36,698 nucleotides of DNA. Source: a virus. The stretch lies in the IMG/VR virus record IMGVR_UViG_3300021559_000325, positions 1 through 36,698 of that record; one strand, 5' to 3'. Made by a program: the position numbers and the translations under genes. Positions 28 through 18,302 of the stretch are shown here, piece by piece. Below the pieces are notes generated by a model. It was not told where the DNA came from, did no database searches, and saw nothing but the letters and a program-made list of their open reading frames with translations. Numbering within the stretch: the stretch's first letter is position 1; each line of letters begins with the position of its first letter.

Positions 28-556
28 TCACATCCCCATACCATTTCTTACTACGAACGCCTGACAAGCCCGTCCCGTAGCTGCTACTTCCTCCGTCTGC
101 AAGATCAAGGCTTGAATATCTCGCGCCACCGCGTCAGGAAGTAGCCCGCCGCCGGGATCGGCTGCAGCGCCTCCTTCGGCGCCAACGGCACCGGCCGGGG
201 CGGCAGGTCCAGCACTTGCACAGAAGGCGGGCTTGCGCATGCGCTCAGCAGCAGCAAGACGAGCGAGTACATCGCTGATTTCGTCATCGTAGACTTTCTT
301 GATGGCCGCCGATTTGATGGCCTGTTGCCTGGCTTGCGCCAGGTTCTCGGTGGCGCGCTGCGCCACCGCCTTCGTTTCCGCTGCCGCGCGGGTCTTCTTG
401 TCGATATTCCACAGCGCCTGCACGGCGGCGCGGCCCTGGGCGACTCCCTGCGCACGCTGATACACCATGCCGAAGCCGGCCAGCACGCACGCACGCCAGC
501 AAAGCACAGTACAACCACCACGGCACCTTGCCCGCCATCTTGGCCAGCGTGATCAC
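28..556 (-). pseudogene. inner-membrane spanin (Rz-like), frameshifted by an extra GCGT
   Basis: In phage lysis the inner spanin sits in the cytoplasmic membrane and bridges to the outer-membrane lipoprotein spanin. The gene would start at a GTG at 556 that overlaps the endolysin TGA, the same junction type as holin-endolysin. The N-terminus reads MAGKVPWWLYCALLAC and then leaves frame; the frame holding the remaining 150 or so residues resumes with LAGFGMVYQRAQG. The break lies in a triple GCGT (plus strand 485-496). Removing one unit restores a continuous transmembrane helix followed by an Ala/Gln/Lys-rich periplasmic helix, as expected for Rz. As written, only a GTG at 507 could start the downstream frame, giving 159 residues with a poor membrane anchor. 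The Rz call rests on position, topology and the embedded Rz1-like gene. A sequencing error in the tetranucleotide is possible. Confidence 0.6.
105..287 (-). CDS. outer-membrane spanin lipoprotein (Rz1-like), embedded
   Basis: This 60-residue ORF lies wholly inside the inner spanin gene in another frame, the classic Rz/Rz1 arrangement. It starts with ATG at 287 (MTKSAMYSLVLLLLSAC). A short hydrophobic segment ends in a lipobox LLSAC with the acylated Cys at residue 17. The mature part is short and proline-rich (DLPPRPVPLAPKEALQPIP), typical of Rz1-type outer spanins that attach to the outer membrane and bind the inner spanin. The start could also be the Met at residue 6. The frame is intact although the overlapping inner spanin carries a frameshift upstream of it. 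Confidence 0.8.
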   Translation of the reverse strand: MTKSAMYSLVLLLLSACASPPSVQVLDLPPRPVPLAPKEALQPIPAAGYFLTRWREIFKP

Positions 557-1077
557 GCCAGCACCTTGCGCGCTTCCCGGTACAAGGCCAAACGCTCGGC
601 CAGGCCGTTCACGCCACCGTTGATGCGGCGCGTCACCCGCTCTTGGTCGCCTGCATCGGCCAGGGCATTCAAACCGCGCGTCTGCCAGAACCAACCGGCC
701 GAACGGCAGGCGTTGGCGGTCTGCTCGAGCAACTCGGGCTGGGCCAGCAGATCCAGGCCCAGCGCCTTGCCACAGGCGGCGTAGTTGGCGCGGCCAGTCA
801 CCTGCAGCAAGCCGCGCCCACGGAAGCGCACGCCGTCGCCGCGCTGGGTGTTGCCCAGGTCGACGCGCCCCTCGTAGGCCTGGCCGCTGGCCAGCTCGCG
901 CACATAGCGCAGCTGGCCGGACTCGTGCCCCACCTGGGACAGGAAGGAAGCCTGGCGTGCCGGGGTCGTGATCCCGAATTCCACCATGGTCGCATTCAGC
1001 GGCGCCAGGAAGGCTACCGCGCGCGTGCGAGCCAGCGGCATGATAGCCAGCAGCTGGACCAGCGTGACGGCGCTCAC
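553..1077 (-). CDS. endolysin, GH19 chitinase-like lysozyme
   Basis: A 174-residue peptidoglycan hydrolase that degrades the cell wall after holin triggering. The family is recognisable by QVGHESGQLRYVREL (residues 48-62, with E52 and E61 as likely catalytic acids), RFRGRGLLQVTGRANYA (85-100) and the C-terminal INGG (152-155), all typical of phage GH19 enzymes. I chose the GTG at 1077 because it overlaps the holin stop as GTGA; a longer reading upstream would lie inside the holin. There is no signal peptide, so export would depend on the holin. It overlaps the downstream spanin by GTGA. Confidence 0.9.
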   Translation of the reverse strand: MSAVTLVQLLAIMPLARTRAVAFLAPLNATMVEFGITTPARQASFLSQVGHESGQLRYVRELASGQAYEGRVDLGNTQRGDGVRFRGRGLLQVTGRANYAACGKALGLDLLAQPELLEQTANACRSAGWFWQTRGLNALADAGDQERVTRRINGGVNGLAERLALYREARKVLA

Positions 1078-1502
1078 AGGCCACCCCGCACGTCCTTGAC
1101 GACGGCGGCCGCATCGCGCGCCAGCTCGCCGATGTCCTTGTCCCGGCGCTTGTCGAACCAACGCACCGTGGCGCCCAGCACCCACCAGGCGGGCAAGCCG
1201 GCGGCCACCATCAGCGGCGCGGCGATGAACAGGAAGCCCAGCGCCGGGTCGCTACCGTACAGCACGGCGACGGCGCGCGCGCTGTCGAACAGGCCCGGCA
1301 TCCAGTTGCGCACGACCACAACCAGGGCCGGCCCCATCAGGGCGGAAAACAGAATGGTGACGAAGAAGCGTACGCCCGCTTCCTTGGCAGTTTTTGGCCA
1401 CATAAACATGAATCCCAGTGAGGTTGCGGCAGCGCCGGCAAGAACCGGGATGCCAAAAATTTTGATCAGTGCGCCGCCGGCGGCGGTCGTTTCGATGGCC
1501 AT
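1074..1502 (-). CDS. putative holin
   Basis: A 142-residue membrane protein just upstream of the endolysin and overlapping its start by 4 bases, so a holin role is inferred from position. Hydrophobic segments lie at about residues 10-34, 44-64 and 83-109, followed by a charged cytoplasmic-type tail (RWFDKRRDKDIGELARD). The start is preceded by CTGAAAGG, a good ribosome binding site, just after a terminator hairpin. I cannot assign a named holin family. Confidence 0.7.
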   Translation of the reverse strand: MAIETTAAGGALIKIFGIPVLAGAAATSLGFMFMWPKTAKEAGVRFFVTILFSALMGPALVVVVRNWMPGLFDSARAVAVLYGSDPALGFLFIAAPLMVAAGLPAWWVLGATVRWFDKRRDKDIGELARDAAAVVKDVRGGL

Positions 1503-12016: not shown

Positions 12017-12322
12017 CTACTTCTTGGCGAACATGCGCCCTATTTTCCTGCCGAATTGCTCCGCTGCCGGCGAACCCTTATATGCTGGCGGGGCCTGATA
12101 ACCAGAATCTGCGGCCAACTTGGCACCAACAGGCGTATCAAGCGGAATCATGCTTTGTCCGCCGCATGCCGCGCAGACCTCATGGCGCTTAGATAAGCGC
12201 CAGAACGAATAAAACAGGCCCGGCACAATAAAGCAGCACCAAAGTACCAACTCAATAAAAATTGAACCAGGTGTGATTTTTTTCACGCGCCCGACGGTGC
12301 CGCATTCCCTGCATATCTGCAT
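12017..12322 (-). CDS. small membrane zinc-ribbon protein, moron-like
   Basis: 101 residues. Two Cys pairs (CREC at 4-7 and CAAC at 50-53) surround a hydrophobic hairpin (ITPGSIFIELVLWCCFIVPGLF, about 16-37). This recalls LITAF-like membrane zinc ribbons, in which the metal site sits against the membrane. It lies inside the tail module between the assembly chaperones and the tape measure, where no such structural protein is needed. A strong ribosome site (GGGAGGG) precedes it and two terminators follow it. That layout fits a moron, possibly changing the lysogen surface. Function unknown. Confidence 0.75.
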   Translation of the reverse strand: MQICRECGTVGRVKKITPGSIFIELVLWCCFIVPGLFYSFWRLSKRHEVCAACGGQSMIPLDTPVGAKLAADSGYQAPPAYKGSPAAEQFGRKIGRMFAKK

Positions 12323-16235: not shown

Positions 16236-17567
16236 TTATGCAGGCACCAAATCACCGTAACGGGCGGCGCCTGGCTTCTCGACCGTCAGCGCTGCACGGC
16301 GTTCAGCGCGGATCGTCACAAGGTTGTTGATGAAGTTGTCACCGTCAGAGTCGGACAGGTCGATCGCGACGCCTTCACGAATCCATAGCGTCGCCGCCTG
16401 CGACAGGCTTCCAACCCATACGCGACCCGCCACCATGGCATTGCTGGCCACCACCGGCAGGCCAAACAGCGCTGGAGGAACCGCCGAACCAGGATCGCCC
16501 AGGATATAGCGGCCGGTATCGTCTTTGCTCAGGCGCAGAGTCCACCAGTCAGCGGTGTTGAGAATGATGGCTTCAGCCGGGTAGTCAGCCAGCGCGCAGT
16601 CACCGATCATCTTGCCGATCAAGTCGAAGCGATTGTTGGCCAGCCCCATGCCGGCCAGTACATCGGCGGTGTAGCCGTGGGGTGTAAAGTTGCCGGTGTT
16701 GGTCAAACCGTTGATGTTGGGCGATACACCATTGCCGGAAACAATCTGGTTTTCCACGCGCAGGTCGACGCCATAGATCATGCGGCGGTTGATATATGCC
16801 ACCATCGCGGCGTTGTCCATGGCCAGCTGACGGGTAATTTTGATCCAGTGTGCGATCGTGCTGACCGGCATCGTGCCGGGCACGAACGTGATGGAACTTT
16901 GAGGCTTGGTGGCGCCTTCCGCCGTTTCGGCCGCAGCATTGGCGAACACGCTTTCACGGACCCAATCAATCGCATTGGCCGACGTGGGGATCTTGGTCAG
17001 CAAATCTTCGATCGTGAAGACACGAAATGCACTTTCGACCAGATTAGGACGCCGCTCGCTGAAAGTGTTGGCGATCACGTTGGTCACCGTGTTTTTAACT
17101 TCGACCCGGGTCTTGATGCGACCATCGGCCTTGACGAAGGAGTCATAAGCCGCATGCTTCGTGAACTGGCCACCAACCGTTTCATCCGCAGCAGGAGCAT
17201 CGTCCTGTGCGCCCGCCTTCTGTTCGATGATCAACAGGCGATCAGCCAATGTGCGCTGTTCGATTCCCAACGCTTCGATGGCCGACTTGGTTTCGGTCGA
17301 TGTCTTGCCCAAATCCTTCATCTCCGCCTCAGCCTTAGTGGAAATCACGCCCAGCTTGGCCTCAACGGAATCGAGCGCCTTCATGATAGCCGCGCCGTCA
17401 ACCTCGCCCATCAAGAACAACCCGGCCAGGCCAGCCATCGCAGGACCGCTCTGCCCCATCAGAGAGGGTACATCGACGCCAAATGCATGCGCGACGCCAC
17501 CCACGCATGCCAGAAACAGTACGAGCACCATCCGCGCAGGGATGCCAAACAATTTAGTACGCTTCAT
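16236..17567 (-). CDS. major capsid protein, HK97 fold, with signal-like N-terminus
   Basis: 443 residues. The HK97-type capsid part is clear from about residue 140: SAFRVFTIEDLLTKIPTSAN, ETAEGATKPQSSITF, ITRQLAMDNAAMVAYI, then the end LVTIRAERRAALTVEKPGA. Residues about 60-115 are the coiled-coil delta/scaffold region (MKALDSVEAKLGVISTKAEA) normally removed by the prohead protease. Unusually, the gene starts with a basic, hydrophobic segment ending AHA|F (MKRTKLFGIPARMVLVLFLA, then CVGGVAHAFG), which looks like a Sec signal. The start at 17567 has a strong ribosome site (GAAAGG); a Met at residue 53 has none. The segment would be lost in head maturation if the delta domain is cleaved. Confidence 0.92.
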   Translation of the reverse strand: MKRTKLFGIPARMVLVLFLACVGGVAHAFGVDVPSLMGQSGPAMAGLAGLFLMGEVDGAAIMKALDSVEAKLGVISTKAEAEMKDLGKTSTETKSAIEALGIEQRTLADRLLIIEQKAGAQDDAPAADETVGGQFTKHAAYDSFVKADGRIKTRVEVKNTVTNVIANTFSERRPNLVESAFRVFTIEDLLTKIPTSANAIDWVRESVFANAAAETAEGATKPQSSITFVPGTMPVSTIAHWIKITRQLAMDNAAMVAYINRRMIYGVDLRVENQIVSGNGVSPNINGLTNTGNFTPHGYTADVLAGMGLANNRFDLIGKMIGDCALADYPAEAIILNTADWWTLRLSKDDTGRYILGDPGSAVPPALFGLPVVASNAMVAGRVWVGSLSQAATLWIREGVAIDLSDSDGDNFINNLVTIRAERRAALTVEKPGAARYGDLVPA

Positions 17568-17584
17568 ATTTACCTTTCAAGTAT

Positions 17585-17608
17585 AAAAAAAGCCGCCATC
17601 AGGCGGCT
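17585..17608 (-). terminator. rho-independent terminator before the capsid gene
   Basis: Minus strand: stem AGCCGCC, loop TGAT, stem GGCGGCT, then a T run that leads into the capsid ribosome site. Confidence 0.85.
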
Positions 17609-17627: not shown

Positions 17628-18302
17628 CTACTGGGCGATTTTCTGCAGCCGGGCCAGAATCTCGTCCATTTCCTTCGCCTTACCCTGTTCGGAGGCATCC
17701 CGCACGCCAAACAGCGTTTTGACGCGGGCGGTCAACGCTTGCGCCGCCCCTTTGCTGAAACTGCCTGCATCCCGCAAGAAGTATTCAAAATCCCTGATCG
17801 TCGAAATTTCAGCGATCTCGTCGGTGAACGACGATTTCACGCTATCGAGATTGATGCGTGCAAATTTATCGGCAGGGAAAACCACGATCGATGTCTCTTT
17901 GAGCATGGCCACTTTGCGAATGACGCGGCCACCAGTCGTCTCATCAAAGTCCCCTTTTTTCAGACCATATCCGATCGACAAGGAGTCGATGGTGCCATGT
18001 TTGAGTGCCGCTTTGACCTGCTCGCCCATGACGTTGCCAGGCGTGAATTCACCGGTCAGCAGCAGGCCATAGTCGTCTTCCTCCGCTTTGGTCCATTTCC
18101 CGATCGGCACTGAGTAGCTGTCGTGATTGAAAAACATTTTTGGTAGGCCATTCGCCCTCAGCGTGTCGACGTAGGCGCCCTTGAGGATCGTGTCGCCGTA
18201 GCTATCGACCTGGTTGAACGCCGACGCATAGCCGGTAAAAGATGCGTCATCCGCCGCCAGCTTGAACTGCACGGCGGCGAACGCTAGTGATTTGATTTCC
18301 AT
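17628..18302 (-). CDS. HK97-family prohead (maturation) protease, U35
   Basis: 224 residues. The family shows in FTGYASAFNQVDSYGDTILKG (split: residues 22-42), LPKMFFNHD with the likely catalytic His60, and IDSLSIGY with the likely catalytic Ser109, followed by LKETSIVVFPADKFARI. It would cut the delta domain off the capsid protein during head expansion. A ribosome site (AGGAA) precedes the ATG. The C-terminal helix (EMDEILARLQKIAQ) is typical too. It lies between portal and capsid genes as expected. Confidence 0.92.
   Translation of the reverse strand: MEIKSLAFAAVQFKLAADDASFTGYASAFNQVDSYGDTILKGAYVDTLRANGLPKMFFNHDSYSVPIGKWTKAEEDDYGLLLTGEFTPGNVMGEQVKAALKHGTIDSLSIGYGLKKGDFDETTGGRVIRKVAMLKETSIVVFPADKFARINLDSVKSSFTDEIAEISTIRDFEYFLRDAGSFSKGAAQALTARVKTLFGVRDASEQGKAKEMDEILARLQKIAQ

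Follow-up and report, generated by a model that had tools for sequence, protein, structure and literature searches.

Virion proteins of tailed phages are taken as purely cytoplasmic until lysis. Shell and tail proteins have to remain within the cell if they are to assemble, which makes a signal cassette on a capsid or tail-tube protein unexpected. The major coat proteins of filamentous phages carry a cleavable signal peptide and are held in the inner membrane before assembly; they are membrane proteins of about 50 residues and are extruded through the envelope. The major capsid protein (MCP) of phage HK97, gp5, starts directly at its delta domain, an inner scaffold that is removed by the protease (PMC10457771). 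The window, the whole stretch of viral DNA that was analysed (36,698 nucleotides; IMG/VR record IMGVR_UViG_3300021559_000325), encodes an MCP that resembles gp5 (3qpr, TIGR01554, PF05065) in fold, in the portal-protease-MCP gene order and in having a delta domain upstream of the mature part. Unlike gp5, it bears a signal-like cassette. A literature search whose scope took in only a minority of subscription journals turned up no earlier account of a signal peptide on a capsid protein of the HK97 type.

The capsid gene of the window

The MCP gene, correctly placed by the initial annotation, lies on the minus strand (Table 1). Its product matches PF05065 (E 1.3e-38) and TIGR01554, and the protein model matches the HK97 and D3 heads in fold (E about 1e-28). 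Together with a delta domain adjoining the gene of a prohead protease, these matches identify an HK97-type MCP. The prohead protease, portal, and large and small terminase genes are found upstream of it in HK97 order. A first structure model was poor (pLDDT 49.8); in a second, for which 98 sequences were used, the capsid domain was well modelled. The modelled delta domain has two helices (residues 58-83 and 91-119), and a further helix is modelled in the cassette (residues 11-28).

Residue 5 of HK97 gp5 aligns near residue 60 of the window MCP, so residues 1-58 are extra and lie wholly upstream of the delta domain, where the initial annotation had put the signal-like segment. The end of the delta domain was set at the equivalent of HK97 K103 and is approximate. 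By analogy with HK97, the prohead protease would be expected to take off the delta domain together with any leftover cassette. A terminator-like hairpin lies upstream of the MCP ribosome site, at a distance of about 14 nt, and most relatives, cassette-bearing and cassette-free alike, have a similar one ahead of the MCP gene. Elsewhere in the window, a holin-like gene followed by an endolysin gene indicates that this phage has ordinary lysis genes, and a small protein with CxxC motifs was also predicted.

Table 1. Coordinates of the features in the window and in related records.
Feature	Record	Coordinates	Strand	Remarks
MCP gene, HK97-type	window	17567-16236	minus	443 aa
Sec signal-peptide-like segment, MCP residues 1-28, MKRTKLFGIPARMVLVLFLACVGGVAHA	window	17484..17567	minus	predicted signal peptidase I cut AHA/F
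Second cassette part, MCP residues 29-58, FGVDVPSLMGQSGPAMAGLAGLFLMGEVDG	window	17394..17483	minus	weakly hydrophobic, acidic, K/R-free
HK97-type delta (scaffold) domain, about residues 59-155	window	17103..17393	minus	alignment to HK97 gp5 3qpr
Mature HK97-fold capsid domain	window	16239..17102	minus	PF05065, TIGR01554, fold match
Ribosome-binding site AAAGG	window	17573-17577	minus	5 nt before ATG at 17567
Terminator-like hairpin AGCCGCC-TGAT-GGCGGCT then T7	window	17591-17608	minus	cassette left border, between protease and MCP genes
Prohead protease (Peptidase_S78)	window	17628..18302	minus	PF04586, E 2.4e-24
Holin-like multi-helix protein	window	1074-1502	minus	
Endolysin	window	553-1185	minus	phrog_181
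Small protein	window	12017-12322	minus	CxxC motifs, one hydrophobic helix
Cassette-tail-tube fusion	L248	1501-2286		
Cassette-tail-tube fusion	L249	275-1072		
Separate cassette ORF	L015	2829-3009		63 aa, own GGAG site
Unrelated hydrophobic MCP N-terminus	L042	2989-3100		
Unrelated hydrophobic MCP N-terminus	L111	1812-1980		
Rhizobium phage 16-3 MCP	L235	4109-5375		annotated ribosomal slip, cassette absent

Relatives with and without the cassette

Sixty MCP relatives were taken from viral and bacterial contigs, two of them truncated ahead of the start. A hydrophobic N-terminus with a basic start was found in 28 of the 60, whereas 29 start directly at the first residues of the delta domain (MSD/MSE..IMKALD or similar), and one (L015) is split. 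Each class has a ribosome site at its own start. All long relatives have one at the long start, and an SD-like match at the core ATG is rare (L005, L028). In nucleotide alignments, for example of the long form L012 with the short form L036, the cassette is a clean block of about 170 nt that one form has and the other lacks, bounded by the ribosome site and the ATCATGAAG of the core. The flanks of this pair are closely similar on both sides, and one ribosome site serves either the cassette or the core. The fused extension proposed by the initial annotation is supported.

A wrongly chosen start, with translation from M53 or M62 and an accidental upstream frame, would also leave homologues that begin at the core. 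About half of the relatives do start there, near residue 59 (the initial annotation had named residue 53 as a start that would speak against the extension), and an ATG is present at M62 in nearly all long forms. However, the short forms have their own ribosome site in the place of the cassette, which points to the presence or absence of a module and not to a wrong start. In the MCP gene of the window, a ribosome site is present only at the long start. An internal start at M62 was rejected, as no properly spaced site precedes it in the window. The 29 short relatives contain no such upstream frame, and the purifying selection and invariant motif described below also argue against a wrong start, which we regard as extremely improbable.

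In the split relative L015, the separate cassette ORF ends in a TGA that shares bases with the ATG at the start of the MCP core (ATGA). Compared with the other long forms one G is missing, so that either the gene is truly split or the sequence contains an error. In two MCP families, MCPs with hydrophobic N-termini unrelated to the cassette (L042, L111) have a ..GYM..G(F/M)(I/L)L.. stretch in common, and possibly represent a second cassette family.

In a tree of the MCP core built without the cassette columns, long and short forms are interspersed, with 11 changes, at least 8 of which are forced by supported branches. A second MCP family, represented by the cultured Mesorhizobium phage vB_MseS-P1 (RcGTA g5 homologue), shows the same presence/absence mosaic: members with strong, intermediate and no hydrophobic N-terminus are mixed, and a quick tree forces at least 10 changes for the strong class. 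The vB_MseS-P1 MCP has its own hydrophobic signal-like segment, ending AHA/G. It differs from the window MCP in its core (33% identical), in a more hydrophobic segment and in an A-x-A that is less clear in its relatives. Homologues of g3-g9, including this MCP, were detected in its virion by mass spectrometry, and particles are therefore made with an MCP gene that has this kind of N-terminus; the word "signal" is absent from the text of the vB_MseS-P1 paper. A third, Psp6-like core (L126, L202) bears cassettes like those of L017 and L023, with 45-54% identity in the cassette and about 32% in the core. In the alphaproteobacterial MCP family, L130-L133, L094, L106 and L086 have a third, short and mildly hydrophobic type of N-terminus, for example MTKHFMPRASLAALLAARPAGIVG, which is not clearly a signal peptide. 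For the MCP of Rhizobium phage 16-3, the annotated ribosomal slip gives a longer alternative product.

The cassette also occurs on the major tail-tube protein of two phages (L247/L248 and L249), as an in-frame fusion preceded by a ribosome site of its own. The tail-tube identity is based on matches to phrog_584 (E 7e-70, from residue 49) and PF08813 (5e-53). Other tail-tube relatives are without the cassette, and nearly all of these have a ribosome site of their own and begin at the core. The initial annotation had suggested a membrane anchor for head assembly. Such a specific role is unsupported, because neither a delta domain nor a prohead protease step exists for the tail-tube protein; moreover, capsids of the same type are built by close relatives that lack the cassette.

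Exactly one copy of the cassette was found in each cassette-bearing phage record searched, whichever gene carries it, and phages with short-form (class B) MCPs have no cassette elsewhere in the searched records. This distribution would fit a passenger, or moron, whose functional unit is a small membrane or periplasmic peptide and for which the capsid or tail-tube gene serves as a strong expression vehicle. The target of such a peptide could be the envelope, the lysis process or superinfecting phages. Movement between MCP families and the tail-tube protein, conservation of the segment after the predicted cut across carriers, and the separate 63-aa ORF of L015 are all consistent with a passenger. 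However, that ORF may be due to a single-base sequencing error, and all other carriers are fused in frame with no stop. Stand-alone copies are absent from 399 Burkholderiales genomes and from the strong matches in 369 and 392 further genomes, and the window phage has holin-like and endolysin genes of its own. We consider the passenger possible, though rather unlikely.

Signal-peptide character and conservation

The initial annotation had described an N-terminus that looks like a cleavable Sec signal, and this likeness is borne out. Residues 1-28 combine four basic residues with a hydrophobic core and end in A26-H27-A28, with FG, beginning at F29, after the predicted cut. The basic start, hydrophobic core and A-x-A are in common with type I (Sec/SPase I) signal peptides of the host, such as those of PQQ alcohol dehydrogenases. 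Few basic residues just after the cut are favoured in exported proteins, and the early mature region of the cassette is likewise poor in K/R, so that the n-, h- and c-regions and the region beyond all show Sec/SPase I features. Unlike host signal peptides, the phage cassette sits on proteins that assemble in the cytoplasm and includes a second conserved segment of about 30 residues, which is retained when the cassette sits on other proteins.

In an alignment of 24 cassettes, most of them 27-53% identical to that of the window, only M1, A26, A28 and G30 are invariant, giving A-x-A/x-G. Only one of the 24 has K/R between the cut and the cassette end. The A-x-A-x-G is also kept where the cassette sits on the tail-tube protein or on a distant MCP core. 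A rule-based signal-peptide pattern was found in 28 of 30 long relatives and in none of 31 short ones, and the hydrophobic core in all 30 long forms. The same pattern appears in 1.1% of shuffles of the window's cassette. A few variants (L028, L042, L282) have lost the A-x-A but kept the hydrophobic helix, suggesting that cleavage is not always needed.

In most close pairs, dN/dS of both cassette halves is 0.07-0.3 (segment <0.35), compared with 0.04-0.18 for the rest of the MCP; it reaches 0.9 in one short, noisy comparison. The second cassette part has a dN/dS of 0.09 against its nearest relative. Judged from these ratios, the cassette is under purifying selection in most pairs. A chance extension, which the initial annotation had also considered, is excluded by these ratios together with the counts in short forms and shuffles.

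As a test of signal-peptide identity, the cassette profile was run against whole bacterial genomes. Strong matches are all in capsid-sized frames. Most of the weak matches (E 1e-4 to 1e-3) fall on the N-termini of proteins that the host exports, namely two PQQ methanol/ethanol dehydrogenases, a PEP-CTERM protein, a GDSL hydrolase, a DUF4148 protein and an unassigned, secreted-looking protein; the other three hit an internal membrane segment or frames that are implausible. These weak matches lend independent, indirect support to the signal-peptide identity.

Several other descriptions were rejected. The lipobox L-[AS]-[GA]-C of a lipoprotein (SPase II) signal is absent; six cassettes have C after the cut, but it is preceded by A-[QHY]-A. 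A membrane hairpin with a second transmembrane helix is contradicted by segment 40-54, which is too weak (about +3, against about -0.9 for the first segment, on an approximate hydrophobicity scale). The helical moments of residues 29-58 are no better than those of shuffles, which does not favour an amphipathic helix. Nor is the cassette a general PF05065 feature: among the 64 readable MCPs of an unselected survey of 299 Pseudomonadota genomes, three show the pattern, all within the subfamily of the window MCP, to which L216 and L278 (mis-chosen start) also belong. No known family for the cassette was found in Pfam, PHROGs (at a usable E-value) or PDB.

The position before the delta domain and the modelled helix 11-28 would also suit a hydrophobic inner scaffold that packs inside the prohead, strengthens the delta-domain clusters and is digested at maturation, with no involvement of the membrane or Sec. 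Such a scaffold leaves the tail-tube carriers unexplained, as well as the basic start, the absence of K/R beyond the cut and the invariance of A-x-A-x-G, and it appears very unlikely.

Possible roles of the cassette

The cassette is real, conserved and unusual. As far as sequence comparison can tell, it is translated and signal-like, it has been exchanged between divergent MCPs, and over evolution the capsid type can do without it. Its free exchange and its absence in close relatives argue against an essential role in assembly. We give about even odds to the reading in which the first 58 or so residues form a portable cassette, made of a Sec signal (residues 1-28) and an acidic segment of about 30 residues, that is carried by abundant virion proteins. 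Most likely, the cassette takes these proteins to the inner membrane and has been removed by the time assembly is complete.

Late in infection, the nascent virion protein would be brought to the Sec machinery of the inner membrane. Its N-terminus would cross the membrane and be cut by signal peptidase I after AHA, and the body of the protein would stay in, or slip back to, the cytoplasm. In the MCP, the prohead protease would take away the remainder of the cassette along with the delta domain. On balance, newly made virion protein would be held transiently at the membrane, with timing, assembly near the membrane and hiding from sensors as candidate gains for the phage. Filamentous coat proteins are comparable as virus coat proteins with a cleavable signal (predicted for the MCP) and a stay in the inner membrane (which the MCP would share); their families in Pfam and PHROGs have no sequence match to the cassette.

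Besides the variants that have lost the A-x-A and the free exchange, two points count against the portable Sec cassette. A working signal peptide should export the protein, so the paradox raised by the initial annotation, that capsid proteins should not be exported, is real. The conserved second segment may be an export stop, but it is too weakly hydrophobic for a clear stop-transfer or plain transmembrane helix.

Evasion of host defences could explain the choice of carriers, as some defences sense the MCP or the tail-tube protein and the cassette might mask new copies or hold them at the membrane until assembly. CapRel senses the MCP. DSR2 senses tail-tube proteins (PMC11087589). Frequent gain and loss of the cassette would fit an arms race; masking, however, needs no signal-peptide features, and evasion is an unlikely explanation. 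Returning to the Sec cassette, a more specific form can be put forward tentatively, with somewhat less than even probability: a mobile secretory cassette, plugged onto the MCP or the tail tube, that serves membrane holding or hiding from sensors until assembly, by catch and release and not export.

If catch and release is correct, a signal peptide would be used here for holding a virion protein instead of exporting it. More broadly, a conserved and exchangeable cassette on these proteins would mean that some phages send virion proteins through the Sec route and retrieve them, or else smuggle a peptide on their structural genes. Either reading can be tested directly, including in the cultured phage vB_MseS-P1, which already yields virions.
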